This document shows positions 20,993-53,148 of a DNA stretch of 64,000 nt, piece after piece. Source of the DNA: Micromonospora sp. WMMD1102 (GTDB taxonomy: Bacteria; Actinomycetota; Actinomycetes; Mycobacteriales; Micromonosporaceae); assembly GCF_029626265.1 (NCBI RefSeq), contig NZ_JARUBN010000001.1, positions 1,178,001-1,242,000 of the forward strand, read 5' to 3'. Position numbers and translations under genes: made by a program. The notes below the pieces were generated by a model that had not been told where the DNA came from, searched no databases, and was given only the letters and a program-made list of their open reading frames with translations. The stretch's first letter is position 1, and each line of letters starts with the position of its first letter.

Positions 20993-21412
20993 ATGGTGCG
21001 ATTCGTGCTCAACCTGCTCTGGCTGATCTTCGGTAGCGGCATCGCCCTCGCCATCGGGTACGGGATCGCCGCCCTGATCTGCTTCGTGCTGGTCGTGACC
21101 ATCCCGTTCGGCGTCGCCGCGCTGCGACTGGCCTACTACTCGCTCTGGCCGTTCGGCCGGACCCTGGTGGCGAAGCCCGGCGCCGGGCTCGGCTCGGGGC
21201 TGGCGAACGTGCTCTGGGTGGTGCTGGCCGGCTGGTGGCTGGCACTCGCGCACATCGTCGCCGGGATCGCGCTCTGCGTCACGATCATCGGTATCCCGTT
21301 CGGCATCGCCAACTTCAAGCTGGTCCCGGCGGCGTTCTGGCCGCTCGGCCGCGAGGTGGTGGAGGTCGACGACCTCCGCCGGCCGGGCGTGGCGCCCACC
21401 CCGGCGAGCTGA
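20993..21412 (+). CDS. YccF-domain membrane protein
   Basis: 139 residues with two copies of the YccF unit: RFVLNLLWLIFGSGIALAIG, then VVTIPFGVAALRLAYYSLWP in the first half; LANVLWVVLAGWWLALAHIV, then ITIIGIPFGIANFKLVPAAFW-like sequence in the second. IPFG and WPFGR/WPLGR are diagnostic. Inner-membrane protein of unknown function. Confidence 0.88.
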   Translation: MVRFVLNLLWLIFGSGIALAIGYGIAALICFVLVVTIPFGVAALRLAYYSLWPFGRTLVAKPGAGLGSGLANVLWVVLAGWWLALAHIVAGIALCVTIIGIPFGIANFKLVPAAFWPLGREVVEVDDLRRPGVAPTPAS

Positions 21413-21443
21413 CGCCGACGGCCCCCGGGTGGCATCCGGGGGC

Positions 21444-23731: not shown

Positions 23732-23912
23732 GCCTGTTCCTCGACAGAGTCGGTGAGAACGGCCGGACGGAGACGCGGGGCGGAGCCCATAACCGTCATG
23801 GTTGTCGACTCTATGGTTCGCCCGCAACGGACGGGAGATGACGAACCTCGATTTCCCGACGGCTTTCCGACACCGGATCCAGGATGCCGGGGGTACTGGC
23901 GGCGCGGCCGGG

Positions 23913-26389: not shown

Positions 26390-26657
26390 ACGCGACGATC
26401 AGCCACGCGTACGACGCCGCCGGTCGCAAGACCGCCACCTACGAGGGAGCGGTCGGCACCGGAAAGCTGCTGAGCCAGTGGGACTACGACCAGGAACTAC
26501 TGGGTGCTCTCTCCGCCACCAGCCGGTTCGTCGAGGACGCGACCTTCACCACGTACTACACCGCCTACGACGAGTTCTACCGGGCACGGGCCACGTACTA
26601 CGAGGTGCCGGCGGCGGCGGGCGACGAACTGGCCCGCGTCTACGACTTCGGAGTGAT
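26386..26657 (+). pseudogene. RHS/YD-repeat toxin gene, upstream fragment (before the IS)
   Basis: The frame gives NATISHAYDAAGRKTATYEG, SQWDYDQELLGALSATSRFV-like YD repeats and a VYDFGVM end, typical of RHS/YD proteins. It begins abruptly at the ribokinase junction, so the large N-terminal part with secretion and most repeats is missing. Its reading frame continues at 27578 once the IS and one copy of the GAT duplication are removed (DFGVM joined to YNRDGTVQSTG). Confidence 0.85.
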
Positions 26658-27574
26658 GAGCCCTTTTCATCCTGCGTAGTGGTTGGCTTCGACGTGGTGC
26701 AGGACGAGGATGGCCTGCACGGTCGTGGTGGCGCGGCGTGGGCAGCAGCGCAGCTTGGCCAGGATCTTCCAGGTCTTGAGCGTGGCGATGGCTCGTTCGC
26801 CGCAAGCACGGATTCTCGTGTGCGCCCGGTTGACCGCCTTCTGCCGGTGTGACAGCTTCGGTCGGAAGCGGTGCCGCTTGAACGGCGTGCGCACGCTGCC
26901 TCGGGCGCCCTGGTAGCCCTTGTCGGCGAAGGTCATCACGTCCGCGCTGGTCAGCGCGTCGATGATGCCGTGGATGCGGGCGGCGGTGAGGTCGTGTGTC
27001 GAGCCCGGCAGTGCCGGTGAGGCCCACACGAGCCGACCGGCTGGATCGGCGATGACCTGCACGTTCACGCCGTGCCGCTTGTGTTTGCCGGCGAAGTACG
27101 GCTTCTGTTCGGCGATCCGGTCGATCGGAATCAGCGTGCCGTCCAGGATCGCGTACGCCAGGCGTCGGATGCGCCGCATCGCCGCGGCCAGGTCCCCAGC
27201 GACCGCGGTGAGCAGGGCGATCGCTTCTTGCACGTACCGCCAGGCGGTGGTGACACCGACGGCGAACCCGGCGGCGAGCCGGGTGTAGGTGTCACCGTTG
27301 CGCAGGTGGGCCAGAGCGAGCAGCGCCTGCCGGCCCGGCGCGAGACGCCGCCAGCGGGATCGATGCTGCTTACGGTGCGCTCGGATGAGGTCGGCGAGGT
27401 GGTTCAGCGTCCGGCTGGACAGCGGGATCGTGGAGGGGTAAGACAGCACAGGCGAGGCTCCCGGTCGGGGCATCGGGTCTTGGTCGACTGCTGTCTTACC
27501 TGGAGCCTCGCCCTCATCGATCTCCGGGTGCGCCGCACCCACCCTGAGCTGCAAGGTCAGGTTGGAAGGGGCTC
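26658..27574. mobile_element. IS5-like insertion sequence (917 bp) inside the RHS gene
   Basis: Terminal inverted repeats are GAGCCCTTTTCATCCTG at 26658-26674 and its imperfect complement at 27558-27574 (14 of 17 matching). GAT is repeated on both sides (26655-26657 and 27575-27577), a 3-bp target duplication. Size and single DDE transposase fit the IS5 family (ISL2/IS1031-like groups). Near the right end, TAAGACAG and GGCGAGGCTCC strings also occur as internal inverted repeats (27438-27514). Confidence 0.85.
26667..27473 (-). CDS. IS5-family DDE transposase
   Basis: 268 residues. An N-terminal HTH_Tnp_4-like region (RNGDTYTRLAAGFAVGVTTA, WRYVQEAIALL) precedes a DDE_Tnp_4 domain: LDGTLIPIDRI (first Asp), KHKRHGVNVQVIADPAGRLV, PGSTHDLTAARIHG, FADKGYQGARGSVRTPFK (second Asp) and NRAHTRIRACGERAIATLK with the terminal Glu. 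All catalytic acids are present, so the element may be active. Its stop codon (26667-26669) lies inside the left inverted repeat. Confidence 0.9.
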   Translation of the reverse strand: MPRPGASPVLSYPSTIPLSSRTLNHLADLIRAHRKQHRSRWRRLAPGRQALLALAHLRNGDTYTRLAAGFAVGVTTAWRYVQEAIALLTAVAGDLAAAMRRIRRLAYAILDGTLIPIDRIAEQKPYFAGKHKRHGVNVQVIADPAGRLVWASPALPGSTHDLTAARIHGIIDALTSADVMTFADKGYQGARGSVRTPFKRHRFRPKLSHRQKAVNRAHTRIRACGERAIATLKTWKILAKLRCCPRRATTTVQAILVLHHVEANHYAG

Positions 27575-29738
27575 GATGTACAACCGGGACGGGACGGTCC
27601 AGTCGACCGGTATGTCCGACGGCGGTGGGTTGCCGTTCGAAAGCATCGCCTACACCTACGACGACCTGCAACGGTTGACGTCCTTCACCAGCGACGACCC
27701 GTACCTGACCCACGTGGACTACTCGGGGACCGGCGACGTCCTGCAGTCCGAGGTGTCGTTCGGAACGAAGAGGGTCTGGTCGACGTATGAGTTCGAGCAG
27801 GGCACCAAGCGGCTGAGCCGGCAGCGGCTCGACCGGAGCGCGGCACCGATCGTCGACATCGATGCCCGCTATGACTACGACCCTGCCGGCAACATCAAGC
27901 GGATCGCGGACACGCCGAGCGGTTCTCGGGATGTCCAGTGCTTCAGCTACGACTACCTGCGCCGGATGGAGCGGGCCTGGACCTCGGCCAGCACCGCCAC
28001 CGACCCGTGTGCCGGCGGCCCGACCACCACCGGTGTCGGCGGGATCGCCCCCTACCACCACTCCTACACGTACGACCTTGTCGGCAACCGGAAGACCGAG
28101 ACACAGCATGCGGTGGCCGGCTCGGCGCAGCGGACGAGGAACTACGAGTACCCGCAGCCGGGGCAGCCGCAGCCGCACACGTTGACCCGGATGACGGAGA
28201 CGGATGCGACCGGAAGCCGGCTGCACGACTACGACGACTCCGGCAACACGACCAGGCGTAACGCGCCGGGCAGGGACCAGACGCTGGTCTGGGACGCCGA
28301 GGGCAATCTGGCCTCGGTGACCGAGGCGGGCAAGACGACCAGCTTCGTCTACGACGTCGACGGCTCCCGGATGCTCCGCAAGGAGCCCGGCGCGACCACG
28401 CTCTACCTGCCCGGCATGGAACTGCGGCTGGACCACACCACCCGGGTCGTCGACGGGACCCGCTACTACCAGGTCCCGGGTGGCGCCACGATCGTCCGCC
28501 GGATCAACGGGCTGTCGTACGTCGCTCCGGACCACAACGGCACCGGGCAGGCATCGGTCGACGCTGCCGGCGGCGTGGTGCACAGGCGGTCGACGCCGTT
28601 CGGTGAGGAACGTGGCGCTCAGCCCATCCCTGGGCAGTGGCCCTCGGAGAAGGGGTTCGTCGGCGGTAACCAGGACTCGACCACGGGCCTGGTCAACATC
28701 GGTGCCCGGGAGTACGACCCGGCCATCGGCCGGTTCGTCTCGGTCGACCCGATCATGGACCTCACCGACCCGCAGCAGATGCACGGCTACACCCACTCCA
28801 ACAACAACCCGGTCACCTTCAGCGACCCCACGGGGTTGAAGTTCGACTGTGGTGGTGGCACGGGCTGGACCAGCTGCACGAATCCCGATGGCAGCACTAG
28901 CATCGGCCCTGGCCCGGAGTTGACCGGTGAGCAGAAGAAGCAGTACGACAAGGCGCTCGACGGCATCCGTAAGAAAAACAAGTGTCAGGCGAGCTTCTGG
29001 TGCCGCAACGCCGGCAAGATCGGCGTCGCCGCAGGTATCGCCGCGGGCGTGATCGTCGGTGCCGCCTGCACCGCAGGCACATGGGGCGTCGGCACCGTCG
29101 GCTGCGCAGCCATCGGCGGCTTCGTCGGCGGCGCAGTCGGTTCCCTCGTCACGAACGCCCTCGACGCCGAAGACGAAAGCGGCTGGCAGATCGCAGGCGA
29201 AGCGCTCCTGAGTGGAGCCATCGGTGCTGCGGTTGGTGCCGGCATGGCAATCGTGGCACCGGCCGTCGGTGCTGGGTTGTCAACACTCGCTGGTGGAGCC
29301 GGAGTACAGGGAGCCATCGGCGCAGGCCGCGCCGCCGCCAGGCCACTGATGGCCGAAGCCATGGCGCCCATCAAGCAACTCGCCAGTTCCTTTACCAGGC
29401 CGCCCGGCGGGTACACAAATCTCCTTTCACCGTCAAACGCTAAGCATATTCTCAAGGGAGATTCACCAACGTCGGGTGGCCATGCTTGGCCAGGTAACCT
29501 AGGCAAAAGCACCTTCCCCTGGCATTGGTCTGACAGAAAGATCCTTCACGCCGTCTCGGACATCGTTAGCGACCCCGCCACTGCCCGGACAAATCAGACA
29601 GGTACACAGGGTGCCCTCTATACGAATGCGGGAAACCCTGCCAAGTGGCGTACGGAAGCTGTTCGCTTCGGTAAGAAGATCCGAGTAATCTATCAGCCTG
29701 CGAGTGGCAACGTGCCTACCGCCTTCCCGCCGAGGTGA
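27575..29738 (+). pseudogene. RHS/YD-repeat toxin gene, downstream fragment with C-terminal EndoU nuclease domain
   Basis: YD repeats (YDDLQRLTSFTS; YDYDPAGNIKRIADT; YTYDLVGNRKTE; LVWDAEGNLASVTEAGKTTS) lead to the RHS core end (ATGLVNIGAREYDPAIGRF-like TTGLVNIGAREYDPAIGRFV and SVDPIMDL...YTHSNNNPVTFSDPTGL). After this comes a Gly/Ala-rich hydrophobic stretch (IGVAAGIAAGVIVGAACTAG) and a C-terminal domain HILKGDSPTSGGHAWPGN, STFPWHWSDRKILHAVSDIV and VRFGKKIRVIYQPASGNV, the bacterial EndoU RNase fold with catalytic His candidates. Base composition falls after about 29400, so the toxin tip was exchanged. The gene is 5'-truncated and IS-split; ATG 27576 could start a partial product but has no clear ribosome site. 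Confidence 0.85.
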
Positions 29739-29745
29739 CGACAGC

Positions 29746-30033
29746 ATGGAGTACATTGAACTGCGACGTAGGGCCGATGACATCGCCCGTGAGGTTACAC
29801 ATCAACTAAGAAATGCGCCGAGCTCCAACGTCGCTCCCGTCGATCCAGCAGACTTCCGGGAGATGGTATGGGCTGGGGAAGCGAAGCTGGGCACTGAGAC
29901 ATTGTGCGAGCAACTCGAGGAGAACGATCTAGCTCTTCCGGGCGAGCTAATACGAAAAATCAAGGAATTTGGCAAGGATGTGGGTGCTGACAAATCTTAC
30001 CTCAACCGGATGCCCGTCAAATCCGTTGAATAG
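29746..30033 (+). CDS. MafI-like immunity protein for the EndoU toxin
   Basis: 95 residues, 7 bp after the toxin stop codon with GAGGTGACGACAGC before the ATG. The central string LGTETLCEQLEENDLALPGE and the LIRKIKEFGKDVGAD segment match the small helical MafI family, the usual immunity partner of EndoU-tipped MafB/RHS toxins. It is clearly lower in GC than its surroundings, like the toxin tip. It is predicted to bind and block the EndoU domain in the cytoplasm. Confidence 0.75.
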   Translation: MEYIELRRRADDIAREVTHQLRNAPSSNVAPVDPADFREMVWAGEAKLGTETLCEQLEENDLALPGELIRKIKEFGKDVGADKSYLNRMPVKSVE

Positions 30034-30290
30034 GAACAGCACGATCAGGGCGAGCCGCCACTGACCCCGGTCCCGGGCCGAGTACGCCAGCGACAGCACA
30101 CAGACCATCACCACCAGCGGCGGTATCAACAACAGGAAGAGCTGAGTACCGTCGGCCGGCGAGCCGTTCCCGGGTCACGGCGGTGCCGGCTCCGCAGGCG
30201 TGCCAGAGGTACGACACCTCGGCGACCGGCACGGTGCGCCCGTTCACGTGGATGCTCTCGGAGGTAACCCGTACCGTGTCGTCCGGTAAG
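30034..30290 (-). pseudogene. Broken DUF6232 gene (N-terminal half, frameshifted)
   Basis: DTVRVTSESIHVNGRTVPVA and EVSYLWHACGAGTAVTRERL match residues 7-45 of the intact DUF6232 protein at 33778-34260; the next part is in another frame (PPLVVMVCVLSLAYSARDRG), and the C-terminal half is missing. The homology stops at about 30034, exactly where the immunity gene ends. The nucleotide match to the intact copy is high over about 250 bp and runs on past the start codon to about 30360 (GTCGGATTCGGGTCA in both). No further gene is seen up to 30358. Confidence 0.8.
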
Positions 30291-30358
30291 AGAGCGTTAC
30301 CGTTCCGCGAAGCGCGGCGGCCGACGCCCGGCAACCCCGGGAGAGGGTCGGATTCGGG

Positions 30359-33777: not shown

Positions 33778-34260
33778 TCACCCCTCGGGGGCGTGCTGCT
33801 CGACGGCCCGCTGGACCGCCCGGTAGATCTGCCCGAACCGCAGCGCGTCCGAGCTGCGCAGCAGCATCACCTCGCCGCCCCGGTATTGCACCCACAGCTC
33901 TTGCACCTTGACGCCCCGCTCGTACGACCGGTCGAGCCAGTAGAGCGGCAGTTCCAGGAACGGGAGCAGCGCCAGCACCCCGACCACACAGGCCGCCAAC
34001 ACGATCGCGGCGAGCTGCCACTGCCCCCGGTCCTGGGCCGAGTACGCCAGCGACAGCACGCAGACCATCGCCACCAGCGGCGGGATCGACAGCAGGAGGA
34101 TGAGTACGCCCCGTCCAGCGAGCCGGCCCCGGGTCCGGGCCGTACCAGGCCCCCGGGCGTGCCAGACGTACGACACCTCGGCGACCGGCACCGTGCGCCC
34201 GTTCGCGTGGATCGTCTCGGAGGTTACCCGTACCGTGTCGTCCCGGTAATAGAGCGTCAC
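33778..34260 (-). CDS. DUF6232 family membrane protein
   Basis: 160 residues: TLYYRDDTVRVTSETIHANG, then GRTVPVAEVSYVWHARGPG, two adjacent TM segments (LILLLSIPPLVAMVCVLSLA; LAAIVLAACVVGVLALLPF) and a C-terminal LWVQYRGGEVMLLRSSDALR with FGQIYRAVQRAVE. Function unknown. Paralogues are at 42550 (intact) and 30034 (broken). It follows the GEAR-repeat gene on the same strand. Confidence 0.85.
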   Translation of the reverse strand: MTLYYRDDTVRVTSETIHANGRTVPVAEVSYVWHARGPGTARTRGRLAGRGVLILLLSIPPLVAMVCVLSLAYSAQDRGQWQLAAIVLAACVVGVLALLPFLELPLYWLDRSYERGVKVQELWVQYRGGEVMLLRSSDALRFGQIYRAVQRAVEQHAPEG

Positions 34261-34372
34261 CGTTCCAGCAAAGCGCGGCCTGTGGTCTGCCCGCCACAGT
34301 TACGCATGGTCGGATTCGGGTCACCCCGACACGGCGAACCACCGCCCCGGCCGGAGCAGGGGCGACGGCGAA

Positions 34373-35212
34373 CTATCCGCCGAGGACGTCGCCGATGGTC
34401 GTGGCGGTGACGGCGCGACGGAGCCAGGTGTCGAGCTGGGCCAGCTCGGTGCAGCCGAGGATCCGCTCACGGGCCTCGGCCGGCACGGCGACACCGCGCC
34501 CGTCGAGCACGGTCAGGATTGCCCGCGCCTCGCCCCGCGCCTCGCCCCGCGCCTCGCCCCGCGCCTCGCCCCGCGCCTCGCCCCGCGCCTCGCCCTGCTC
34601 TTCGTGACGGGCGGCAAGTTCACGCAGCAGTTCGCTGCGGTATTCGTAGTCCGCGGTGGTGGTCATGAAGGCCTCCCAGCGAGTCCGGGCCGCCGTCGGC
34701 AGTCCGGCCAGTACGACGTCATAATACAAGATCGCGGCCTTCGGGCCGACCGTGCGAAGTGCCTCCATCAACGCCGGGAAGGTGGCTTCCACCTGGGCGT
34801 CCTGGCCGTGGCAGATGGCCGAGAGCACGGCCAGGGCCGGGTTGCTGCGGGCCACTTCGACGTCCACGACCAGCGGCACGTCGTTCGGGGTGAAGATGAA
34901 CGGCCGCAGTGACAGGCTCAGCCCGCCGAACTCGAACAGTCCGCGGTAGCGGCGGGCGGTCCGGGAATCGGGGCAGAAGACCAGCAGCGCGGCGTCGACG
35001 TCCAGCTCGCTTTCGAGTTGGGCCACGTAGAGCTTCCAGGTGCGGCGCTTGGCGGAGTCCCAGCGACGCTGGATCTCCAGCACCACGGCGAGCAGTGGCC
35101 GGTCGGCCGAATCGCAGTAGAGCAGCATGCCGTCCGCGTGGTAGGCGCGCGGGACCAGCACCCGTACGTCGGTGGCGTGCGTGCGGGCGTGGTGGTAGTC
35201 GGGGACCTTCAC
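34373..35212 (-). pseudogene. GEAR-repeat conserved protein, displaced C-terminal part (N-terminus is at 42382-42468)
   Basis: 279 residues beginning GTG-AAG (VKVPDYHHARTHATDVRVLV). Conserved blocks are YHADGMLLYCDSADRPLLAV, VLEIQRRWDSAKRRTWKLYV, FTPNDVPLVVDVEVA and ILYYDVVLAGLPTAARTRWE; the D...ExQ spacing early in the protein recalls Rpn/PD-(D/E)XK-like nucleases. A tail of six GEAR repeats follows, then AILTVLDGRGVAVP and CTELAQLDTWLRRAV. As I recall this Micromonosporaceae family, full proteins carry about 29 residues more at the N-terminus; that piece is found 7.2 kb away, in frame. The part here might still be translated from the GTG, but without a clear ribosome site. Confidence 0.75.
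34525..34598. repeat. Six tandem copies of a 12-bp unit (GCGCCTCGCCCC)
   Basis: The perfect 12-bp repeats encode the GEAR GEAR peptide repeats of the minus-strand gene. Copy number of such units probably varies by slippage in steps of four residues, without changing the frame. Confidence 0.9.
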
Positions 35213-35213
35213 G

Positions 35214-35492
35214 CTGATGCAGGCGGCATTCCGCCCGCCGAAAGAACCCAGCGACCAAGCCGGACCGCTCTGGCGCGATGACCTTGACCCAGGCGAGTCG
35301 GTGGCTCAGATGGAGCTGTTCAAAGGTGCTATCGGGCTGTTCAAGAACCCATCGAGTCATCGCCGCGTGGACTACTCCGACCCCACCGAAGCCGCCGAGA
35401 CCGTCCTCCTGGCCGACCTACTTCTTAGGCTGCTGCGCAAGATCCCCGAGGGTCCCGTCGCTGGTGAAGGTGCGGACCTCGACGGGGACTGA
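35214..35492 (+). pseudogene. TIGR02391-like (Ymh) protein, C-terminal fragment
   Basis: From ATG 35217: MQAAFRPPKEPSDQAGPLWR, then AQMELFKGAIGLFKNPSSHR and RVDYSDPTEAAETVLLADLL. FKxAIGxFKNPSSHRxVDY is the C-terminal signature of TIGR02391 proteins, normally 250-300 residues. Similarity starts exactly at the rearrangement junction near 35213, and an in-frame TAG lies just upstream (35196-35198), so the 5' part was lost. Confidence 0.7.
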
Positions 35493-35527
35493 CGGCGGCA
35501 CCCTGGCCGATGACCAGGGTGCCGCCG
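35493..35527. terminator. Bidirectional terminator, 14-bp perfect stem
   Basis: CGGCGGCACCCTGG (35493-35506) pairs with CCAGGGTGCCGCCG (35514-35527), 7-nt loop, immediately after the TIGR02391 fragment and before the end of the convergent anti-sigma-like gene. Confidence 0.85.
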
Positions 35528-35595
35528 ACGCCCGGTTGCGGTCGGCGGCTACACCGCGCCCGCCGTGTTCGCCTCGTTGACCGGCACCGCCACTG

Positions 35596-36357
35596 TCAGC
35601 GGTCGATCCGGTCCAGGTCCGGTAGGGGCCGCTCGGCCATTACCCTTCCGGCCGCGTCGTAGCCGACGAGCGTCGGTGGGTCGACGCGCTCGTCAGCCAG
35701 GTACCAGAAGAAGAACTGGCCCTCGGCGGGCAGTGCCGGCCGGGTGGTCCCATCGGGCAGCCGCAGCTCGGCCCGGGCCGCGCCGCCGGCGGCGGCCCAC
35801 ATGGTGTGTATCCCGCGGTCATCCGCCGACCCGCCGGTGCTGTGGAAGGGCCCGCTGCCGCTGCCGCGGTTGCGGTCCGACGCCCGTTCACAGCTCCCGC
35901 CGGCCAGCCGGAAGTCCGCCGGGGCGGGCCGGTCGAGGGGACCGGGCGGCTCGAACATCGGCGCGATGCAGATGGTGCCGTTCTCGTTCCGGGCGGACCA
36001 GACCGACAGGACCATGCCGTCTGGCCCCGGTGCCTGAGCCACCCGCCGCGCCGTCTGGACGTCCACCGAGCCACCGGTCTCCTTGGCCCAGAACGAGAGC
36101 GGCCCGGTGAACGAGTCCGGCAGCAGCCCGCTCGCCGTTGCGATGCCTGCGCCCGACGCGAGCAGCCCGGTGGTGAGCGCGGCGGTGAGCAGCAACCGTC
36201 GACGGCGGGTTCGCACTCGGGCTGGCGGTGCCGAGTCGGTGGCGGTCCGCAGCAGGCGCTCCAGCGTCGCGTCCCGGGTGGTGGCGGGCCAGTGGTCGTC
36301 GACCGTGGTCGCCGGCCGCAGCTTTTCGAGGGTGGTGAGTTTGCTCTGCCTGGTCAT
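35596..36357 (-). CDS. Membrane protein partnered with ECF sigma factor (anti-sigma-like)
   Basis: 253 residues: cytoplasmic N-terminus of about 50 residues (TLEKLRPATTVDDHWPATTR), one TM near 52-72 (LLLTAALTTGLLASGAGIAT) and an extracytoplasmic domain with two cysteines (NGTICIAPMF; LAGGSCERA). No zinc-binding HxxxCxxC motif is present, so it is not a ZAS anti-sigma factor. ATG at 36357 overlaps the sigma stop (ATGA) and has GGAGGAGG upstream. It probably binds or controls the sigma factor; this is inferred from context. Confidence 0.75.
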   Translation of the reverse strand: MTRQSKLTTLEKLRPATTVDDHWPATTRDATLERLLRTATDSAPPARVRTRRRRLLLTAALTTGLLASGAGIATASGLLPDSFTGPLSFWAKETGGSVDVQTARRVAQAPGPDGMVLSVWSARNENGTICIAPMFEPPGPLDRPAPADFRLAGGSCERASDRNRGSGSGPFHSTGGSADDRGIHTMWAAAGGAARAELRLPDGTTRPALPAEGQFFFWYLADERVDPPTLVGYDAAGRVMAERPLPDLDRIDR

Positions 36358-36905
36358 GCGGTGCCTCCTCCAGAGAATGGCAGTGGTCTTGGGGTGGTGT
36401 CGGTGTACGGCGGCGTGTCCGCCTCGCAGTCGGCCTGTAACCGCCGTCGAGCGCGGAAGAGGCGTACGTGGAAGGCGGGCAGCGAGCAGCCGGCCACCTT
36501 CGCCGCCTGCCCGGGCGTCAGCCCGTCCCAGGCGACCAGCAGCAGCGCCTCCCGCTCCCGGGGTGTCAGTGCCGCCAGCCGGGCCAGTACGGCCGCGCGT
36601 TCGGTGGCGAGCACGTCGGCCGCGGCGGCCGGCTCCGCGACCTGACGGAACCGCTCCAACTCCTTGGCCAGCCGTGCCTGCCGGTGCCCGGACCGGCGCA
36701 GGTTGCCGATCGTGTTGCGGGCGACCACGAGCAACCACGGCAAGGGTTCGTCCGGAACGCTCGCCAGCCGGCGCCAGGCCACCAGGAACGTCTCCGACAC
36801 CACGTCCTGGGCGGCGTCGGAGTCGAGATGTCGCAACGCGTACGCCATGACGCGGGGGCCGTACTCGGTCCACATCGCCACGAACCGCTGTTCGTCTTCG
36901 CTCAC
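36354..36905 (-). CDS. ECF-family RNA polymerase sigma factor
   Basis: 183 residues. Region 2 is RVMAYALRHLDSDAAQDVVS with ETFLVAWRRLASVP; region 4 is LARLAALTPREREALLLVAW and DGLTPGQAAKVAGCSLPAFH, VRLFRARRRL. GTG start at 36905. It is the first gene of a two-gene unit with the TM protein. It lies inside the 7.2-kb segment that splits the GEAR-repeat gene. Confidence 0.9.
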   Translation of the reverse strand: MSEDEQRFVAMWTEYGPRVMAYALRHLDSDAAQDVVSETFLVAWRRLASVPDEPLPWLLVVARNTIGNLRRSGHRQARLAKELERFRQVAEPAAAADVLATERAAVLARLAALTPREREALLLVAWDGLTPGQAAKVAGCSLPAFHVRLFRARRRLQADCEADTPPYTDTTPRPLPFSGGGTA

Positions 36906-36954
36906 ACCACGTACTGTCCGGCCACTCCGGAAAACTTACGCGCGGTGCGCCCGC

Positions 36955-37390
36955 TCACCATCTCCTCGGCTGATGGAACCAGGCGTCGAAGAAGGTGCGA
37001 TAGCTGCCGGACGCTGCGTTTCTCGGCCAAGCGGACGAAGGTGACGGTCGTCACAATGCTCTCGCAGTTGCGGGCGCACCACCCCGGCAGGATGCGGAAG
37101 AACGTCCTGTCGCCGACCATGCCGCAGTGCCAAAAGCGCTGCGACGTCGCTGTCGTAGACGTACAACATCACGTCGAGCGCGGGCATGGTGGCGCACGAG
37201 GTGCCGAACGCTTTCGGCGACGCGGGGAGCCCTACTGTATGGCGCTCTTCGTCGTAGACCACTCGGAGAACCTGGCGAAGCCCTCGTCGAGCCAGATGGT
37301 CGGCCCTCGCACCCTCGCTCGTCCCACGCTGTCAGGTTCGGCAGCCGCTGAAACCGGTCCGGCGCACTGTGGCCGGCATGCTCAGCCAAC
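36955..37390 (-). pseudogene. M1-family aminopeptidase, decayed C-terminal remnant
   Basis: Pieces in different minus-strand frames match one M1 metallopeptidase: TIWLDEGFARFSEW (about 37305-37262), YVYDSDVAALLALRH (about 37165-37121), VGDRTFFRILPGWCARN and TVTFVRLAEKRS (37117 downward), and finally FFDAWFHQPRRW before TGA at 36955-36957. At least three frameshifts and a stop are needed to join them, and the zinc-binding HExxH part is not recognisable. The following stretch to 37627 has no gene; it holds a small perfect hairpin (CCGAGCCA 37504-37511, TGGCTCGG 37515-37522). Confidence 0.7.
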
Positions 37391-37627
37391 TGCCAGCAGC
37401 AGTGCTGGCGGTACGCGTTTTCCGCGCAGGGCTCATCGACACGCACAGGAAGGCCGACTCGTCCGGTCCGTCCAGACCACCGTACGACGCCGACAGCGGC
37501 CGACCGAGCCACGATGGCTCGGATGACCACTCCGACCCATCACCGTACGTAGCTGCCAGTGCTCGCGTCAGAGGAACTCGCCGCGATCGAATACGCGCGC
37601 CTAACCGGTCTCAAGCGCCGGTGAGCG

Positions 37628-38278
37628 TCATGACTGTCCCTCCACTCCGGTCGGGGCCGGCGTGGTGCGCGCCGGCTCGACGCCGCCGTCGGCCGCCTGC
37701 CGGCGCAACTCCCGGTGGATCGTGGTGATGTCCGTCGGCGCGGCGGGGATGACCAGGTCCCGGTGCCGGTCGCAGGGCAACGGCAGACTCTCCTCCGGCT
37801 CCCCGAGGTTCAGCCCGAGGCCGATCTCCACGCGGTACGCCCGGTGGCACCCGCAGGTCATGTGGTAGGTCGTGCCGGCGATGCCGTGGGAGGTGTGCTC
37901 GACGACCTGTTCGCCGGCGGCTTCCAGCGCCCGGAGGTACCGAACGGCGTTGGCGGCCACCCGACGGTGCCGCTCACGCTGCTCGGGCGAGGTCATGATG
38001 TGTCGGACCCGGTCCCTGCCGCCGGGCACCTGGTCGATGGCGGTACGGACCTGGCCAGCCGGCTGCTCCCAGTCCACGCCGAGCCGGGTCAGTTCGCGCA
38101 GCGCCGGGCCGAGGTCGGCCTTGCGCGGGAAACCGGCCGGGTGCAGCGGCAGGCGGCAGGCGGTGTGCGTGACGAACCACCCGTTCACCTGCTTCGAGGC
38201 GGACAAGCCAGCCGGAAGCTGAATGCCCCGCGACTCGGCACGCCAGGCGGCGGGGTCCTTGGCGGTGGTAGTGGCCAC
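37628..38278 (-). CDS. Hypothetical protein with a Cys/His cluster
   Basis: 216 residues from GTG 38278 (GAGAGGAG upstream). Not recognised. Visible are VTHTACRLPLHPAGFPRKAD, a helical basic region (SPEQRERHRRVAANAVRYL) and a C-terminal THMTC-like metal-site candidate: TTYHMTCGCHRAYRVEIGL followed by LPLPCDRHRDLV. It is divergent from the ribbon-helix-helix gene across the 15-bp inverted repeat at 38315-38364 and may be controlled by it. Confidence 0.65.
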   Translation of the reverse strand: MATTTAKDPAAWRAESRGIQLPAGLSASKQVNGWFVTHTACRLPLHPAGFPRKADLGPALRELTRLGVDWEQPAGQVRTAIDQVPGGRDRVRHIMTSPEQRERHRRVAANAVRYLRALEAAGEQVVEHTSHGIAGTTYHMTCGCHRAYRVEIGLGLNLGEPEESLPLPCDRHRDLVIPAAPTDITTIHRELRRQAADGGVEPARTTPAPTGVEGQS

Positions 38279-38314
38279 GGGGACTCCTCTCGAAGGGGAT
38301 CGAGCGGTGCAATT

Positions 38315-38364
38315 ATTGGCTTGCCATTTACGGTCCCACTCGCCGTAGGAAATGGCAAGCCAAT
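38315..38364. promoter_or_regulatory. 15-bp perfect inverted repeat, likely operator of a divergent promoter
   Basis: ATTGGCTTGCCATTT (38315-38329) and AAATGGCAAGCCAAT (38350-38364) are perfect inverted repeats 20 bp apart. A smaller repeat ATGCCA (38365-38370)/TGGCAT (38378-38383) overlaps the start of the ribbon-helix-helix gene. TGGCA half-sites therefore occur four times, fitting co-operative binding by a small RHH dimer. Confidence 0.7.
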
Positions 38365-38381
38365 ATGCCATGATTGTTGGC

Positions 38382-38624
38382 ATGACCCGATGGCCGACCA
38401 AGAACTTCCGCCCGAACCCGGTCTACGCCGAGGCGGGCGAGGACGCCGCCGACGAGGCCGGGGTGAGCTTCAACGTGCTGGTGCAGGCGATGCTGCGGGA
38501 ACTCAGGGCGGACCCGGCTGGCCGGCTCGCGGCGTTGGCGCCGCACATCCAGGCGGTCGCCGCCGAGACGCCGTCGCGAGGACGGCCGGCCAGGGAGAGC
38601 CCCGGCCGGAGTCCCGGGGGTTAA
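38382..38624 (+). CDS. Small ribbon-helix-helix-type DNA-binding protein
   Basis: 80 residues (ATG 38382; ATG 38370 or 38352 also in frame). The core NFRPNPVYAEAGEDAADEAG, then VSFNVLVQAMLRELRADPAG fits one RHH unit (short strand, two helices) with a Pro/Arg-rich tail. RHH proteins of this size regulate plasmid/ICE or toxin-antitoxin genes; no toxin is adjacent. Autoregulation through the inverted repeat at 38315-38364 is inferred. The upstream ATGs would lie inside that operator, favouring the later start. Confidence 0.6.
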   Translation: MTRWPTKNFRPNPVYAEAGEDAADEAGVSFNVLVQAMLRELRADPAGRLAALAPHIQAVAAETPSRGRPARESPGRSPGG

Positions 38625-38745
38625 GTCAGGCTTGACCCTTCCAGGCGGCTGGTCATCTACGTGGCGTTTTGTGCCCGTCAGGCAGGGCTCCTGCTACCCT
38701 GGGAAGCGCAGGACGCCCGGTTTCGGGGTTCCCGCACCCGCCTTG

Positions 38746-38767
38746 GGGCCCGCGCTTACGCGGGCCC
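38746..38767. terminator. Terminator hairpin, 9-bp stem, between convergent genes
   Basis: GGGCCCGCG (38746-38754) and CGCGGGCCC (38759-38767) around a CTTA loop, followed by TTCG. The DUF3800 stop codon (TAA, 38758-38756 on the minus strand) is in the loop. Confidence 0.8.
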
Positions 38768-39301
38768 TTCGTGCATCTGTCGAGCGGTCGGGGACCAGCA
38801 CCAGGAGTGGTAGACCTGCGGCTGCACCCAGGACCACAGCCGTTCGTTCGTCGCCGCTTCGCGCGGGTCGACCGGGCTCTGCATTCGGCGGAACAGGAAC
38901 ATCAGCAGGTCGGCGGCCTGGACCAGCCGGGACGCGTGGCTCGGCGCGAAGTGCAGCGTGTCGACGATCCGGGTGAGCCGGCGGGAGCGATAGCCGCCAG
39001 TGCCGTCGACCCGGTAGCGGGTCAGGTCGGCCCGGTGCCGCGCCGGGTGGTCGACCTCGTCCGCGATCACCAGGGCCAACTCCTCCTCGCGGGCGGCGTA
39101 GGCGTCGACGCGCTCCAGGACGTGCGACAGCACGACCTCGTGCGCGGGCTTGGGAGTCGGGTACCGCTCGGCGAGGCCGTGCCGGTCGACGCCGCGCAGG
39201 ATGACCGTGACGTCGTGGGCGCCGATGGCCTTGAGCGCCGCGTTGTAGACCGCGATCCGGAGCCGGGGCGGAACCTGTTCAGCGGCTGAGGCAACGACCA
39301 A
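38756..39301 (-). pseudogene. DUF3800 protein, 5'-truncated by an IS110-type element
   Basis: About 180 residues of the C-terminal two-thirds: RIAVYNAALKAIGAHDVTVI, LRGVDRHGLAERYPTPKPAH, LALVIADEVDHPARHRADLT, RIVDTLHFAPSHASRLVQAA (DTLHF...S..VQxAD is the conserved DUF3800 core). The N-terminal YxDESG motif is missing because the sequence changes to IS110 DNA at about 39301. DUF3800 proteins are RNase H-like and common on mobile elements. Confidence 0.8.
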
Positions 39302-39310
39302 TCTCGCGGC

Positions 39311-40108
39311 TCAGGCCGCTGCGGGCGCGCCTTGTGGTGGGAATGCCTTGTGCTCGGTGTAGGGCTGTCCGTTGGCCAGGCAGTGGTGCAGTTGGGATAG
39401 GAAGCGGTTGAACAGGTTACGCAGGGCGGCGGCGTGGCGGTCGCCGGAGTGGCGGCGGCGGTCGTAGTGGGCGCGTACGGCGTCGGACTTGGTGAGCGCG
39501 GCGAAGGTCCAGAGGTAGCCGGTCGCGGCGAGGCGTTGGGTTTTGACTCGGCGGTGCATGACGATGTGGCTCTTGCCGGAGGTGCGGGTGACCGGTGCGG
39601 AGCCGGCGTAGGCGCGCAGGGCTCGGGCGTCGGCGAACCGGGTTCGGTCATCGCCGATCTCGGCGAGGACACGGGCGGCGGTCAGCCCGCCGAGGCCGGG
39701 GAAGCTGGTCAGGATGGCGGCGTCGGGGTGGTCGACGAATGCCTGATCGGTGGCCTCGTTGAGCTGCTCGGCGGCCTTGCAGGCAGCATCGAGCTGAAGG
39801 AGCAGGGCGCGGGCCTGGTGGCCGAACGCGGTTTCGACCGTGGCCGGTTGGCGCAACTGTTCGGCGCCGAAGATGCCCAGGAGCCGTTCGGCCCATGCCT
39901 CGATCCCGCGTTGGCGACCTGCATCCTTGAGCAGGGCGCACAGCTCGGGCTTGGTTAGCGCGGCGGCCTGGCCTGGGGTGGGTGCGGCAGCGAGGACTGT
40001 GCGGGCCTCGATGCTGGTCAGTCCGATGTGCTTGCGGTGGAACGCCTCCAGCGCGGCGGGGAAGAACTCCCGCAGGGGCTGTCCGCCGGGGCGTGTCCAC
40101 GGCCGGGT
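39311..40108 (-). mobile_element. IS110-family transposase, N-terminally truncated
   Basis: The frame reads from about RPGGQPLREFFPAALEAF, SIEARTVLAAAPTPGQAAAL, GIEAWAERLLGIFGAEQLRQ to the Transposase_20 domain (LTSFPGLGGLTAARVLAEIG; FADARALRAYAGSAPVTRTS; VKTQRLAATGYLWTFAALT) and ends QGAPAAA. The N-terminal DEDD catalytic domain (about 150 residues) is absent, so it is inactive. No terminal repeats or target duplication are expected for this family; its 3' end touches the truncated DUF3800 gene. Confidence 0.8.
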
Positions 40109-40246
40109 TCTGTCCCTGGGAGATAGTCCACCGAGATCAGCTTGAGGAGAGTCCGGGGCCGGAGCGGTCGGGGTTCATGTGCCGAGCCGGTAACTCCCAG
40201 GTACCGGAAGCGGCGCGGCAGCACCTTCCCTGACCTGGCCCACTCC

Positions 40247-40981
40247 CTACCTGGCGGGTTCGGGCTCGGCGGCCGGCGCGGGCCCGCGAGTTGCCGCCGT
40301 GGCGGACGCCGCCGACGCTGGCGGTGGCGCGGCGGTGGTGGTGGAGGGGAACGCGGTGGCCGCCACTGCGGCGGCGGTCGCTGCGTCACTAGCCGGTGCG
40401 GGCTCGCGCGCCTTGGTGTAGACGTAGTGCTGGATGACGGCGCGGAGTTCGTCGACCAGGTCGTTACCGTCGACGGCCAGGGCGGCCAGCCGGGCCGGGG
40501 CGTTGACGAGTTGCGCTGTGATGGCCGGGCCGAAGACCTCCGCGAAGCTGGCAGGATTGCCGGCCTGCGCGGCGGCGCCGAGGTCGGAGTCTTCGCACAG
40601 GCGGGTGGTGGCCTGGTTGAGCCAGGCCCGCTCGTCGCGGGTGAGCGCTGCCGCGAGCGTCGGTACCCGGGCCTTGATCTCGTCGTCGGTGAGCACGACC
40701 GTCGGTGTCGCGGCCGGGTCCGGGTCGGACCGGTCAGCGCTGGCGGGGGCCGGCCCGGCGCCGGCCGCCGGCGGCGGGGTGGCTCGGATGGTGTCGTGGA
40801 CGGCGTGGCGGGCGGCGTTGAACATGCTCGCGCGCCAGTCGGCGTCGTCGCACTTGAGGAAGATCGCCACGGACAGGCTCGGCTGGTCCGGGTCGCCGAG
40901 CATGGCGGTGAGCGCCTTGTCGAAGGTGCCGGCGAACGCGGCGACGTCGTCGTGCTGGCGGGCGGCGGCTTGGGCTCGTTG
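40247..40981 (-). pseudogene. Integrative-element protein, C-terminal fragment
   Basis: The frame from about 40981 gives ARQHDDVAAFAGTFDKALTA, MLGDPDQPSLSVAIFLKCDD, ADWRASMFNAARHAVHDTIR, then DDEIKARVPTLAAALTRDER and an Ala/Pro-rich tail. I recall such sequences near replication/mobilisation genes of actinomycete integrative elements, function unknown. Its 5' part is replaced by the methylase-helicase fragment in another frame. GC-rich low-complexity sequence codes the last 50 residues. The stretch 40109-40246 has no recognisable gene. Confidence 0.55.
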
Positions 40982-40984
40982 ACG

Positions 40985-41893
40985 TGAACGGTGTCGACGC
41001 CGGGGACGTCGACCTCCTGGGTCTGCTCCCAGGCCATCCCCGCCTGCGGCTGGCCCGGCTCACGGCGGCGCAGGATCAGCAGGTCGGTGACGACCTTGGT
41101 GCCGGCCGCGTCCTCGTGCGCGCCGCTTGGCAGCCGCACCGCCGACACCAGGTCCGCCAGCGCGGCCATCTCCCGCCGGGCGGCCGGGTTCGCGGCGTCC
41201 ATCGTGTAGCGGGAGGTCAGCGCCACGACCAGCCCACCGGGCCTGGTCAGGTGCAAACTCTTGATCAGGAAGTGGTTGTGGATCGAGTGCTTGCCCGGGT
41301 TGTGCCGCCGGTCGGCCAGCGCGAAGCTGCCGAACGGCACGTTGCTGATCGTCAGGTCGAACGTGGCGGCCGGCGCGCGGGTGTCCGCGAAACGACTCGG
41401 TGCGGATGGTGGCGTGCGGGTAGAGCGCGGCGGCGATCCCGGCCGTGACCGGCTCCACCTCCACCCCGGTCAGCCGGGCGCCGTCGGGCGCCAGACCGAT
41501 GAACGTGCCCGACCCGCAGCCGGGTTCCAGCACGTCACCGCCGGCGAACCCGAGGCCGCGGACCGCGTCCCAGATGGCCCGGACGTACGCCGCGGCGGTG
41601 TAGTGCGCGTTCAACGTGTTGCGCTCGGCCGCCGCGTACTCCCGCTCGTCGAGCAACTGCCGGAGCTGCTCCCGGGCCGCCTCGAACCGGGCGTGGTCGC
41701 GGTGGTCGGCGCGGCCCTCGAACACCCCGGGCACCGCTCCCCAACCCGACCAGCGGGCCAGCACCGCCTGCTCCTCGACGGTCGCCGGCCGGTCCTCGGC
41801 CTGGAGCGTGCGCAGGGTACGCAGCGCCGCCAGGTTCGCATTGAGCCGGGCCACCTCACCCCGGGGCGCCAGGTCCTCCTGCCCCCGGGGCAC
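40985..41893 (-). pseudogene. N6-DNA methylase/helicase-type element protein, N-terminal fragment with frameshift
   Basis: GTG 41893 begins PRGQEDLAPRGEVARLNANL, LQAEDRPATVEEQAVLARWS, GWGAVPGVFEGR; SAM-binding motif I is VLEPGCGSGTFIGLAP and motif IV is ISNVPFGSFALADR, followed by HNHFLIKSLHLTRPGGLVV and TKVVTDLLILRRREPGQ. The two parts are in different frames: one extra base in AAA at 41390-41392 (plus strand) breaks TESF|ADTRAP. Homologues continue for more than 1,000 residues into a helicase; here the protein ends after VHVNE at about 40985. Start overlaps the Toprim stop. Confidence 0.7.
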
Positions 41894-42381
41894 GAACGAC
41901 GGCTGCCAACGGCTCGGCGATCTCGTCCGGCTGCCCGTGCAGCATGGCGCGGACCGACTGGGCGGCGACCTCCCGGCCCGCCGCCGTGGTGAAGGTGCCG
42001 GCGGCCCAGTCCACCCGGCCGGTGACCACGACCTCGACCAGCGGCCAGGTGTCCGCACCGTCCGGGGTGATGGCCAACACCGGCCCGGGACGGTCCGGGT
42101 GCCGGGTCACCGCCGGATCGAGCACATGGAAGGCCCGCGCCGCAGACCGCCGCCCGTCGGCGCTGCCGTCCTCGTCGACGACCACGGCGACGCCGGCCGC
42201 CGGATCCGCCTGCGCGGTGAGCGCCGCGACCTGCGGCCCGGTCAGGGCCGGCCCGCACGCGGCCACCGCCAGCGGCGCACCGTCGCCACGCTCGGCCAGC
42301 GCGATCGCCTCCACCGCAGACCGGGCTACCACCGACCGGCCGGCCCGGTCGGGCTGCTCGGCGAGCCCGAACAGCACCTCA
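41856..42381 (-). pseudogene. Toprim-domain element protein (primase/relaxase-like), C-terminal fragment
   Basis: About 173 residues: RSVVARSAVEAIALAERGDG, APLAVAACGPALTGPQVAAL, GVAVVVDEDGSADGRRSAAR (the Toprim DxD-like strand) and PVLAITPDGADTWPL. This matches the Toprim end of large proteins encoded beside methylase-helicase genes on actinomycete mobile elements. The frame begins at the junction with the GEAR-repeat N-terminal fragment (42381/42382), so its main N-terminal part is missing. Confidence 0.6.
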
Positions 42382-42468
42382 GTTGAACACGTGCGTGAGC
42401 AGCCAGGTCACCAGGCTCGGGTCGAGCTTGGCCAGGGCGACCGGGGACTCGTGCTCGGCACTCGGCAT
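42382..42468 (-). pseudogene. GEAR-repeat conserved protein, displaced N-terminal 29 codons
   Basis: ATG 42468 reads MPSAEHESPVALAKLDPSLV, TWLLTHVFN and then meets TGA (42381-42379) from the adjoining Toprim DNA. Joined to the GTG-AAG at 35212 it gives THVFN-VKVPDYHHART with no base lost or gained, restoring a protein of 308 residues. This is the missing N-terminus of the gene at 34373-35212. On its own it codes a 29-residue peptide. Confidence 0.75.
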
Positions 42469-42549: not shown

Positions 42550-43035
42550 TCAGCGGTTGCGGCCGGCGGTGGCTCCGGCGGCGCTGGTCTGCTCGACGGC
42601 GCGTTCCAGCGCCCGGTAGACCTGACCGAACCGCAGCGCGTCGCCGGTGCTGAGCAGCCGGACCGGCCTGCCGCGCCACTGCGCCCAGATCTCCAGCCGG
42701 TGCGCGCCGCGGGTGTAGGTGCGGTCGACGTGCTCCAGCAGGAAATCGGCGACCGGGGCGGCGGCGAGCCCGACCAGGACGGAGGCGCCGACGATCGCGA
42801 TGGTGGCGGTGACCGAGGTGTGCAGGCGTACCGCGATCAGGATGCCGACCGCGGCGGCGAGCAGCGGGCCGGCGAGCCCGGCCAGCAGCGCGCCCCGGCC
42901 GGCGAGGGTGCCCCACGACCGGGCGCCCCGGACGTGCCAGACCCGGGCCACCTCGACCAGCGGGTAGGCCCGGCCGTCCACCCGGATCGCCTCCGAGGTG
43001 ATCCGGATCGTGCGGTCGTCGTAGTACGTGGTCAT
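42550..43035 (-). CDS. DUF6232 family membrane protein
   Basis: 161 residues: TTYYDDRTIRITSEAIRVDG, YPLVEVARVWHVRGARSWG, two TM segments (LLAGLAGPLLAAAVGILIAV; TATIAIVGASVLVGLAAAPV) and LEIWAQWRGRPVRLLSTGDA with FGQVYRALERAVE. GAGGTGGAACGGCG precedes the ATG. It is 81 bp upstream of the displaced N-terminus of the GEAR-repeat gene, just as the other intact copy follows that gene's C-terminus. Confidence 0.85.
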   Translation of the reverse strand: MTTYYDDRTIRITSEAIRVDGRAYPLVEVARVWHVRGARSWGTLAGRGALLAGLAGPLLAAAVGILIAVRLHTSVTATIAIVGASVLVGLAAAPVADFLLEHVDRTYTRGAHRLEIWAQWRGRPVRLLSTGDALRFGQVYRALERAVEQTSAAGATAGRNR

Positions 43036-47612: not shown

Positions 47613-47901
47613 TCCTGTCGTCCTTCGCCCCGGGCGCGCGACCGCGCCGACCAGCGGTGCGAGGGTGGTGGCACCGGTTTCGGCCATGCTACGACCGCCG
47701 CCGCGCACAGGTCCCGGGAACAGCGGACTCCACACCGCCCCGCGCCGGCCGGTTGCCCTCCGCGCCGGCCCGTCGGTCGAGTGGAACGGTCGCGTCATCG
47801 GCCATGTCAGCGGGATGTCAGCGCGCGGCGGCCGGTGTCAGCCCCGGCTCAGCGCCGTTGGGCAGGGTGGGTGCACGACGAGAACCGACGGGAGAACATC
47901 C

Positions 47902-48873
47902 ATGGATTACGCCATCCGGGCCGACGGGCTGGTCAGACGCTTCGGCGAGACCACCGCGCTGGCCGGAGTGGATCTGGCGGTGCGGTCCGGCACCGTCTTC
48001 GGGCTGCTCGGCCCGAACGGGGCCGGCAAGACCACCGCGGTACGAATCCTCGCCACCCTGCTCCGACCCGACGCCGGTGCCGCCACCGTCGGCGGGTACG
48101 ACGTACTCGGTCAGGCGCACCAGGTGCGCCAGATGATCGGACTGACCGGTCAGTACGCGTCGGTCGACGAGACGCTCACCGGTGCCGAGAACCTGCTGCT
48201 GATCGGCCGGCTGCTCGGGCTTTCCCGGGCCGACGCCCGGCACCGCGCCCGGCGGCTGCTGGCCGAGTTCCACCTCTCCGACGCGGCGGACCGGGCGGCG
48301 AAGACGTACTCCGGCGGGATGCGGCGGCGGTTGGACCTGGCCGCGAGCCTGGTCGGCCGACCCCGGGTGCTCTTCCTCGACGAACCCACCACCGGGCTGG
48401 ACCCGCGCAGCCGTACCGAACTCTGGGGCATCGTCCGGGACCTGGTCGGTTCGGGGGTGACCGTGCTGCTCACCACGCAGTACCTGGAGGAGGCGGACCA
48501 ACTCGCCGACGAGATCGCGGTGATCGACCACGGCCGGGTGATCGCCCAGGGCTCGTCGGAGGAGTTGAAGGCGAAGGTCGGCGGGCAGGCGCTGGTGGTC
48601 CGCCCGGCCGAGCCCGCCGACCTGGCGGTGGTGGTCGGCGTGCTGCGGGAGGTGGCGGGTGCCGAGCCGGAGCGCAACCAGCAGACCGTGACCGTGCCGG
48701 TCAGCGACGGGGACGTGCTGCCCGTGGTGGTGCGCCGGCTCGACGAGGCCGGGGTCACCGTCGCCGAACTCGCGCTGCGCGGTGCGAGCCTGGACGAGGT
48801 GTTCCTGTCGCTGACCGGGCACCGGGCCGAGGACACCGAGGACGGGACCGAGCGGGCGGAGGTACCGGCGTGA
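47902..48873 (+). CDS. DrrA-type ABC exporter ATP-binding protein
   Basis: 323 residues: Walker A GPNGAGKTTAVRILATLLRP, QYASVDETLTGAENL, signature YSGGMRRRLDLAASLV, Walker B LFLDEPTTGLDPRSR and H-loop LLTTQYLEEADQLADEIAVI. The GQxxxVD and TTQYLEEAD motifs and the C-terminal extension place it with daunorubicin-resistance DrrA ATPases. GGGAGAA precedes the ATG. It is followed by its permease through a GTGA overlap; self-resistance or export of a hydrophobic compound is typical. Confidence 0.92.
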   Translation: MDYAIRADGLVRRFGETTALAGVDLAVRSGTVFGLLGPNGAGKTTAVRILATLLRPDAGAATVGGYDVLGQAHQVRQMIGLTGQYASVDETLTGAENLLLIGRLLGLSRADARHRARRLLAEFHLSDAADRAAKTYSGGMRRRLDLAASLVGRPRVLFLDEPTTGLDPRSRTELWGIVRDLVGSGVTVLLTTQYLEEADQLADEIAVIDHGRVIAQGSSEELKAKVGGQALVVRPAEPADLAVVVGVLREVAGAEPERNQQTVTVPVSDGDVLPVVVRRLDEAGVTVAELALRGASLDEVFLSLTGHRAEDTEDGTERAEVPA

Positions 48874-49676
48874 CGACGTTCGACGCCCCGCTGCCGGTGC
48901 CGACCGGGCGGGTCGGCCCGCTGGCGGGAATCCGGCACACCATGACCCTCGCCTGGCGCAGCCTGGTGCAGATCAAGCACAACCCGATGGAACTGCTCGA
49001 CCTGAGCATCCAGCCGCTGATGTTCGTACTGCTCTTCACCTACGTCTTCGGCGGCGCGATCGCCGACAGCCCGGTCGACTACCTGCGCTTCATGCTGCCC
49101 GGCATCATGGTGCAGAACGCGCTCTTCGCGACCATGACCACCGGGTTCGGGCTGAACACCGACCTGACCAAGGGTGTCTTCGACCGGCTGCGTTCGCTGC
49201 CGATCGCCCGTTGGGCGCCGCTGGCCGGCCGGATCGTCGCCGACACGGTCAAGCAGGCCTGGTCGATAGCGCTGCTGCTCGGCGTCGGGATGGTGCTCGG
49301 CTTCCGCATCGGCACCGGCCCGCTCGGGGTACTCGGCGCGTTCGCGCTGCTGCTGGCCTTCTCACTGGCCGCCGCCTGGATCTCGGTGCTGGTCGGGGTG
49401 TTGGCCAGTGAGCCGGACAAGGTGCAGATCTTCGGTTTCACGTTGCTCTTCCCGCTGACCTTCACCAGCAACGTCTTCGTGCCGACCGAGAGCATGCCCG
49501 GTTGGCTACAGGCCTGGGTGAAGGTGAACCCGGTCTCCACGCTGGCCGACGCGCTACGTGGGCTGCTGGTCTCCGGTCCGGAGTCGGGGCCGATCGTCAC
49601 CTCGCTGATCTGGGCGGTCGGTATCGCGGCGGTCTTCGCCCCGCTCGCCGTCCGGGCGGTCATCCGGCGGACCTGA
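48870..49676 (+). CDS. DrrB-type ABC-2 exporter permease
   Basis: 268 residues, six TM segments (LSIQPLMFVLLFTYVFGGAI; QNALFATMTTGFGLNTDLTK; ALLLAFSLAAAWISVLVGVL; FTLLFPLTFTSNVFVPTESM) and the ABC-2 signature GVFDRLRSLPIARWAPLAGR. NPxSTLADALRGLL at the end is characteristic of DrrB. GTG start overlaps the ATPase stop, GGAGG upstream. Its last 123 bp overlap the 3' end of the convergent AfsR-like gene. Confidence 0.92.
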   Translation: MTTFDAPLPVPTGRVGPLAGIRHTMTLAWRSLVQIKHNPMELLDLSIQPLMFVLLFTYVFGGAIADSPVDYLRFMLPGIMVQNALFATMTTGFGLNTDLTKGVFDRLRSLPIARWAPLAGRIVADTVKQAWSIALLLGVGMVLGFRIGTGPLGVLGAFALLLAFSLAAAWISVLVGVLASEPDKVQIFGFTLLFPLTFTSNVFVPTESMPGWLQAWVKVNPVSTLADALRGLLVSGPESGPIVTSLIWAVGIAAVFAPLAVRAVIRRT

Positions 49677-53033: not shown

Positions 53034-53148
53034 GCCGTCGATTGTGCCCGGCACGCTCCCGGCGGTCCGGCAGGGTCCCAGCGCGGTCCGGCACGGCCGT
53101 CTCCCCGGCGGGTCCGCCGGAACGGTGAGGCGACCGCCTCTCGGGACG

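Follow-up and report, generated by a model that had tools for sequence, protein, structure and literature searches.

A flush insertion in an ancestral gene

The stretch of DNA examined here, referred to below as the window, comprises 64,000 nucleotides of Micromonospora sp. WMMD1102 (contig NZ_JARUBN010000001.1, positions 1,178,001 to 1,242,000). It holds an actinobacterial gene, probably comparable in its mode of action to the Rpn (YhgA-like) nucleases, in two pieces of 29 and 279 codons that are separated by 7.2 kb of inserted DNA. The comparisons with intact copies and empty sites confirm that an ancestral gene was split by a flush insertion, with no target base lost or duplicated. We favour, with a probability of roughly 0.6, the explanation that the 7.2 kb were captured by non-homologous end joining (NHEJ).

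When the two pieces were compared by BLASTN with intact copies from related Plantactinospora genomes and with paralogues, they were found to be in register, with 0 bases between them, in all five loci holding both (L002, L004, L005, L006 and L007); in L007 the alignment of the N-terminal piece ends 3 bases before the cut and the register is kept. The preliminary description of this DNA, according to which the pieces join without loss of a base, is correct in coordinates and frame. A set of 19 loci comprises the window itself, a copy of the C-terminal part alone (L003), and 17 loci in which the N-terminal part is joined across residues 29/30; among these 17, L097 matches from residue 12 only and has a stop, and L093 and L094 shift frame elsewhere. 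A homologue search placed 349 proteins over threshold among 8000 candidates scored. All 120 listed homologues have residues ahead of the cut, never fewer than 11 and in 101 cases exactly 29, and none starts at the cut itself, which bears out the earlier proposal that the two parts together form the usual start of the protein.

On both sides of the split gene the DNA is colinear with that of G005 and, as far as it was fetched, of G002 (P. endophytica), with other gaps elsewhere, and the 7.2 kb are absent at the split-gene site in both; the comparison of syntenic genomes therefore agrees with the earlier view of the spacing as an insertion. In G003 (P. mayteni) the gene is intact, but its neighbours, the ABC operon and the DUF6232 gene, are placed differently. 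The locus would provide a natural case, clearly delimited and with the site unoccupied in sister species, for the capture of foreign DNA by end joining that has been proposed from induced-break experiments in Streptomyces.

Junctions and the route of insertion

The ambiguity at the junctions is a single nucleotide, the G at 35213, which is at chance level: of 2000 pairs drawn at random with this spacing, 988 have no base in common and 585 have one. The direct repeat at the ends is equalled in length in 397 of 400 random pairs, and the inverted repeat in 105 of 400. As previously described, then, there is neither a target duplication nor a pair of terminal inverted repeats, repeats at the ends being no longer than chance. 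At the right junction the window has an A where pVMKU, a plasmid of M. maris, and NBC_00821 have a G and G236 has a C; this A could have arisen by substitution or been added as an extra base. An imperfect 5-bp target duplication (GCTGA/GTTGA) with TG..CA ends was also considered and rejected, given that in G025 CTGATGCAG forms part of the TIGR02391 reading frame.

Flush junctions that are nearly free of homology and lie between unrelated coding sequences fit end joining, and the genome encodes Ku and LigD, the latter recognized by its LigD_N domain only. A double-strand break would have fallen between codons 29 and 30, and end joining would have sealed in a largely pre-decayed 7.2-kb stretch of plasmid helicase, IS110, DUF3800, sigma/anti-sigma and TIGR02391 pieces, the target bases being neither lost nor duplicated in the repair. 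The insert cuts off the start and the two N-terminal helices from the putative nuclease core, so that full-length nuclease would no longer be made; the internal start and the antitoxin-like domain are left intact, and an internal antitoxin-like product may remain. The flush insertion, its patchwork content, the anatomy of the junctions, the Ku and LigD genes and the conserved signature of an internal start are observed, whereas we infer the end-joining mechanism, the arrival in an already decayed state and the fate of the two products, with the toxin lost and the antitoxin kept.

In Streptomyces ambofaciens, Hoff et al. (2018, PMC5869714) describe five insertions, between 30 bp and 18.8 kb long, at breaks that had healed, and they speculate that the same route could bring in foreign DNA. 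Both cases concern an actinobacterium with Ku and LigD, and some of the scars in S. ambofaciens show microhomology. The insertions described there consist of the bacterium's own DNA at induced breaks, whereas the present one is a natural event, with DNA that is partly plasmid-like and a target site that kept all its bases.

State of the gene and of the insert

Along the window branch, the split gene carries 17 nonsynonymous and 20 synonymous unique changes. Under neutrality the nonsynonymous share would be 0.78 (binomial p=2.2e-5, with changes treated as independent), which argues for purifying selection during most of that branch. The corresponding counts elsewhere are 21/25 in G003, 13/13 in G005 and 4/22 in G002. 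Both halves of the gene are free of stops and frameshifts. The test fits a late insertion as well as continuing constraint on what remains of the gene. Given that the helicase sequence within the insert is badly broken while the halves of the split gene are undecayed, much of the debris in the insert was probably already broken on arrival. The insert is a patchwork of mostly broken genes and not one element, with at least six pieces that have different best relatives.

Other explanations of the insertion

The preliminary description preferred site-specific or replicative recombination followed by decay. Entry of a plasmid or integrative element by site-specific recombination, with most of its genes then lost in place, would account for the plasmid-type DNA in part of the insert and for the lack of a target duplication, but we consider it unlikely. 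The junctions share only 1 base and thus lack a common core of 2 bp or more. No integrase was found in the insert open reading frames (ORFs) scanned with Pfam (not every frame was scanned), their only recombinase being the internal, truncated IS110 transposase. Furthermore, both ends are gene interiors without their 5' parts, so that joining them yields no sensible circle, and decay in place does not sit well with undecayed, purifying-selected host gene halves beside a badly broken helicase.

Template switching, or another replication-based form of illegitimate recombination that does not use Ku and LigD, could have stitched the fragments together; it was likewise allowed by the preliminary description and remains a rival of low probability. 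The number of pieces with different best relatives speaks for it, and Kingston et al. (PMC5350276) name primer-template switching as a joining route for Rpn-made ends. Against it stand the presence of the NHEJ genes in the genome and the minimal homology, 1 nucleotide, at the outer junctions. Microhomology-primed switching usually uses a longer homology than this.

It is highly improbable that IS110 (bridge-RNA) or other transposition placed the DNA. IS110 insertions often lack target duplications, and a transposase fragment resembling IS110-family transposons does lie inside the insert, but it is truncated, internal and placed where the DUF3800 gene is cut, and its profile positions 1-171 are gone. 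The insert ends in TIGR02391 and helicase sequence and not in insertion-sequence ends, and no complete transposase with its ends at the junctions was found. An assembly chimera, conceivable for a single genome judged without reads, is hardly credible in a contig of 8.67 Mb whose flanks are colinear with relatives on both sides and whose junctions have no repeat above chance.

An Rpn-like layout of the split gene

The split gene probably encodes an actinobacterial nuclease and works in the manner of the Rpn genes of phage defence, as a toxin-antitoxin gene-within-a-gene, and we regard this as part of the best explanation of the locus. The full-length product would be the nuclease, of PD-(D/E)XK type (RpnL-like), and an internal start would additionally give the C-terminal domain by itself (RpnS-like). 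A structure model of an orthologue is tentatively read as PD-(D/E)XK-like, with two N-terminal helices in the 29-codon part and a helical domain at the C-terminus. The residues D56, E75 and Q77 are invariant in all 40 of the members aligned, from the 120 listed homologues, and their spacing, D-(18)-E-x-Q, is that of the RpnA active site, whose residues are given as D63, E82 and Q84 in PMC5350276. Weighing against the Rpn-like interpretation, two full-length members match no Pfam family up to E=5, and hence not PF04754, and there is no significant sequence or profile similarity to RpnA/B (hhalign probability 0.12%). The nuclease and antitoxin roles of the family are putative.

Several further features are shared with E. 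coli RpnA-E as these are described in PMC5350276 and PMC10327210. Besides the active-site spacing, they comprise C-terminal four-residue repeats of variable number, an internal ribosome-binding site and ATG before the repeats, a C-terminal helical domain (a model in the present case) and separate downstream C-terminal copies. The window gene has six GEAR units, versus two to four in the intact Plantactinospora copies seen. In copies read by eye, the repeats start at residue 21-25 from the internal Met, as opposed to 8-20 residues after it in the Rpn paper, and the downstream C-terminal copy, unlike those of Rpn described there, also keeps some residues before the internal Met. One such C-terminal-only copy, with its own GGGAGG-ATG, lies downstream of an rpn-like paralogue in the window genome (L045, 4073-4480).

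The sequence TGGGAGGCNTTYATG, or a close form of it, stands directly before the repeats. TGGGAGG is present in 17 of 17 ORF rows (16 distinct, one copy being counted twice) from 16 of 23 loci, and the E codon in it is GAG in all 17, versus 171 of 250 elsewhere in these ORFs with the GEAR units excluded. Seven loci lack the TGGGAGG pattern: three of them (L092, L096 and L103) retain GGAGG before the ATG despite changed residues, and the other four have no usable match at the site. All 19 distinct ORFs that can be read at this site thus carry the start signature (the site is unreadable in 4 of the 23 loci), although the sequences are related and the counts are accordingly not independent. Because the ribosome-binding site is kept while the protein changes, an internal start can be argued for, and a putative internal translation start would yield an RpnS-like product. 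In the window this signature is intact at 34664-34678 and would yield 97 residues. Both the Rpn-like nature of the gene and its internal start had been missed in the preliminary description.

A wider scenario would be that a toxin-antitoxin gene-within-a-gene was naturally turned into an antitoxin-only gene by end-joining capture of foreign debris, possibly where the nuclease had itself cut the DNA, with the start of the toxin lost and the internal antitoxin start and an expanded six-unit repeat kept, and that the Micromonosporaceae hold a diverged, unrecognised Rpn L/S defence family in which the conserved ribosome-binding site marks the nested antitoxin start; we offer it tentatively and consider it doubtful as a whole. 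A nuclease-like family (349 found, the named sources seen being actinobacterial) was missed by the domain libraries tried and yet bears the marks of a nested Rpn gene. The nested toxin-antitoxin design hence becomes testable beyond the bacteria in which it was first shown.

Content of the insert

The features of the split gene and of the insert are collected in Table 1.

Table 1. Positions in the window of the split gene, its internal features and the pieces of the insert.
Feature	Position	Strand	Remarks
C-terminal 279 codons of the split, probably Rpn-like gene	34373..35212	-	equivalents of D56/E75/Q77 (orthologue numbering), then C-terminal domain
Putative RpnS-like internal ORF, 97 codons	34373..34666	-	start ATG 34664-34666
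12-bp tandem repeat, 6.2 copies	34522..34595	-	encodes 6 GEAR units
GGGAGG, ribosome-binding-site-like	34672..34677	-	intragenic, shortly before the internal ATG
Insert, 7169 bp	35213..42381		left junction 35212/35213, right junction 42381/42382; base 35213 (G) assignable to either side
TIGR02391 (Hypoth_Ymh) C-terminal fragment	35214..35492	+	similarity to the intact G025 gene starts at 35214
Terminator-like hairpin	35493..35527		seen by eye; separates the TIGR02391 fragment from the probable anti-sigma gene; common to the G005 remnant
Probable anti-sigma gene	35596..36357	-	no Pfam match; named from its position after the sigma gene
ECF sigma-70 factor gene	36354..36905	-	intact
Degenerate remnant	36967..37305		two blocks, 75-91% identical to G062, G037, G094
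Rare hypothetical gene	37628..38278	-	3 proteins found including itself; one plasmid relative, Amycolatopsis
Small divergent ORF, 80 codons	38382..38624	+	no Pfam, NCBIfam or PADLOC family
DUF3800 C-terminal fragment	38689..39275	-	N-terminal side cut at 39275
IS110 transposase C-terminal fragment	39311..40066	-	profile positions 172-343 of 343
Micromonospora plasmid helicase gene remnant	40247..42380	-	pseudogene, three large parts gone
N-terminal 29 codons of the split, probably Rpn-like gene	42382..42468	-	two N-terminal helices in the orthologue model

The left edge of the insert is a truncated TIGR02391 gene, as had been described. This fragment scores E=1.2e-8 with NCBIfam, below the curated cut-off, and E=8.5e-10 with Pfam PF09509, above the cut-off, and is 74% identical to an intact gene in G025. 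Among 300 family genomes, G025 is the only one besides the window's own that was matched by the piece (E<=1e-25), and it is not among the 34 genomes that match the right part of the insert (E<=1e-60).

The right edge is likewise a cut gene, but it consists of plasmid-helicase DNA; the Toprim gene named in the preliminary description is not supported, the edge ORF having no Pfam match at E<=0.01. Compared with the open 2502-residue protein of NBC_00821, the remnant is frameshifted and falls into four blocks in three frames, and the first 186 residues of that protein are missing at the right junction. Three blocks are 79 to 91% identical to pVMKU, where they are separated by about 4.15 and 0.74 kb, both deleted in the window. 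The largest block has about 91% nucleotide identity to pVMKU (40975-41907) and about 77% to NBC_00821 (41019-41889). The window copy is thus alike in sequence to the Micromonospora plasmid helicase genes of pVMKU and NBC_00821, and differs from them as a pseudogene. In pVMKU, NBC_00821 and G236, plasmid-type DNA runs on past the point of the right junction.

The annotated helicase gene of pVMKU does not extend over the rightmost block, and the gene is therefore perhaps altered on plasmids too. A short form of the helicase is annotated on a Verrucosispora plasmid (L039, 7977-9572), and the gaps of the window copy fall within the gaps of this form; hence shortened forms exist on plasmids as well. 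Integration of a whole pVMKU-like plasmid was considered and rejected, no plasmid-helicase relative being seen with the left end. No record is common to the 20 listed of 336 helicase-type and the 20 listed of 23 TIGR02391 records, adjacency not having been checked per record. A phage origin was also rejected, with only short helicase matches in five phage records.

For the sigma/anti-sigma pair, the DNA at 35591-36941 is 91% identical to G062, and a 456-bp remnant, 94% identical, is found in G005. Similarity to this remnant (L041:3822) begins at 35493, the base after the TIGR02391 stop codon, which is either a common cassette boundary or a coincidence. That the sigma gene is a displaced core gene of the genus was rejected, G005 holding the remnant only; at E<=1e-30 the sigma protein was matched in one of six other genus genomes (G004, 48%). 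Between the divergent genes at 38278/38382 lies an inverted repeat (TTGGCTTGCCATTT at 38316 and AAATGGCAAGCCAA at 38350, spanning 38316-38363), possibly a candidate operator. Submitted to PADLOC, neither the orthologue of the host gene nor DUF6232 nor any of four insert ORFs gave a defence match.

Neighbourhood of the split gene

Three copies of DUF6232 are present in the window, at 33778-34327, 30037-30321 and 42550-43035. The one at 33778-34327 is complete and sits in the interval from the ABC operon to the split gene, an interval that has no DUF6232 copy in G005 and G002; the one to the left of the ABC operon is truncated at 30037. DUF6232 as a constant neighbour of the gene was rejected, no copy having been found close to it in the remaining loci searched.

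Further differences from the relatives lie farther away. The block at 26394-30036 has no counterpart in G005 or G002, is in part about 61% GC and ends at the cut DUF6232 copy; its ORFs presumably represent an RHS/YD-repeat protein overlapped by a transposase. About 2.5 kb at 21387-23912 are likewise without a counterpart at this place in G005 or G002. On the other side of the split gene, the region at 47731-53148 is largely matched in G002 and is missing in G005.

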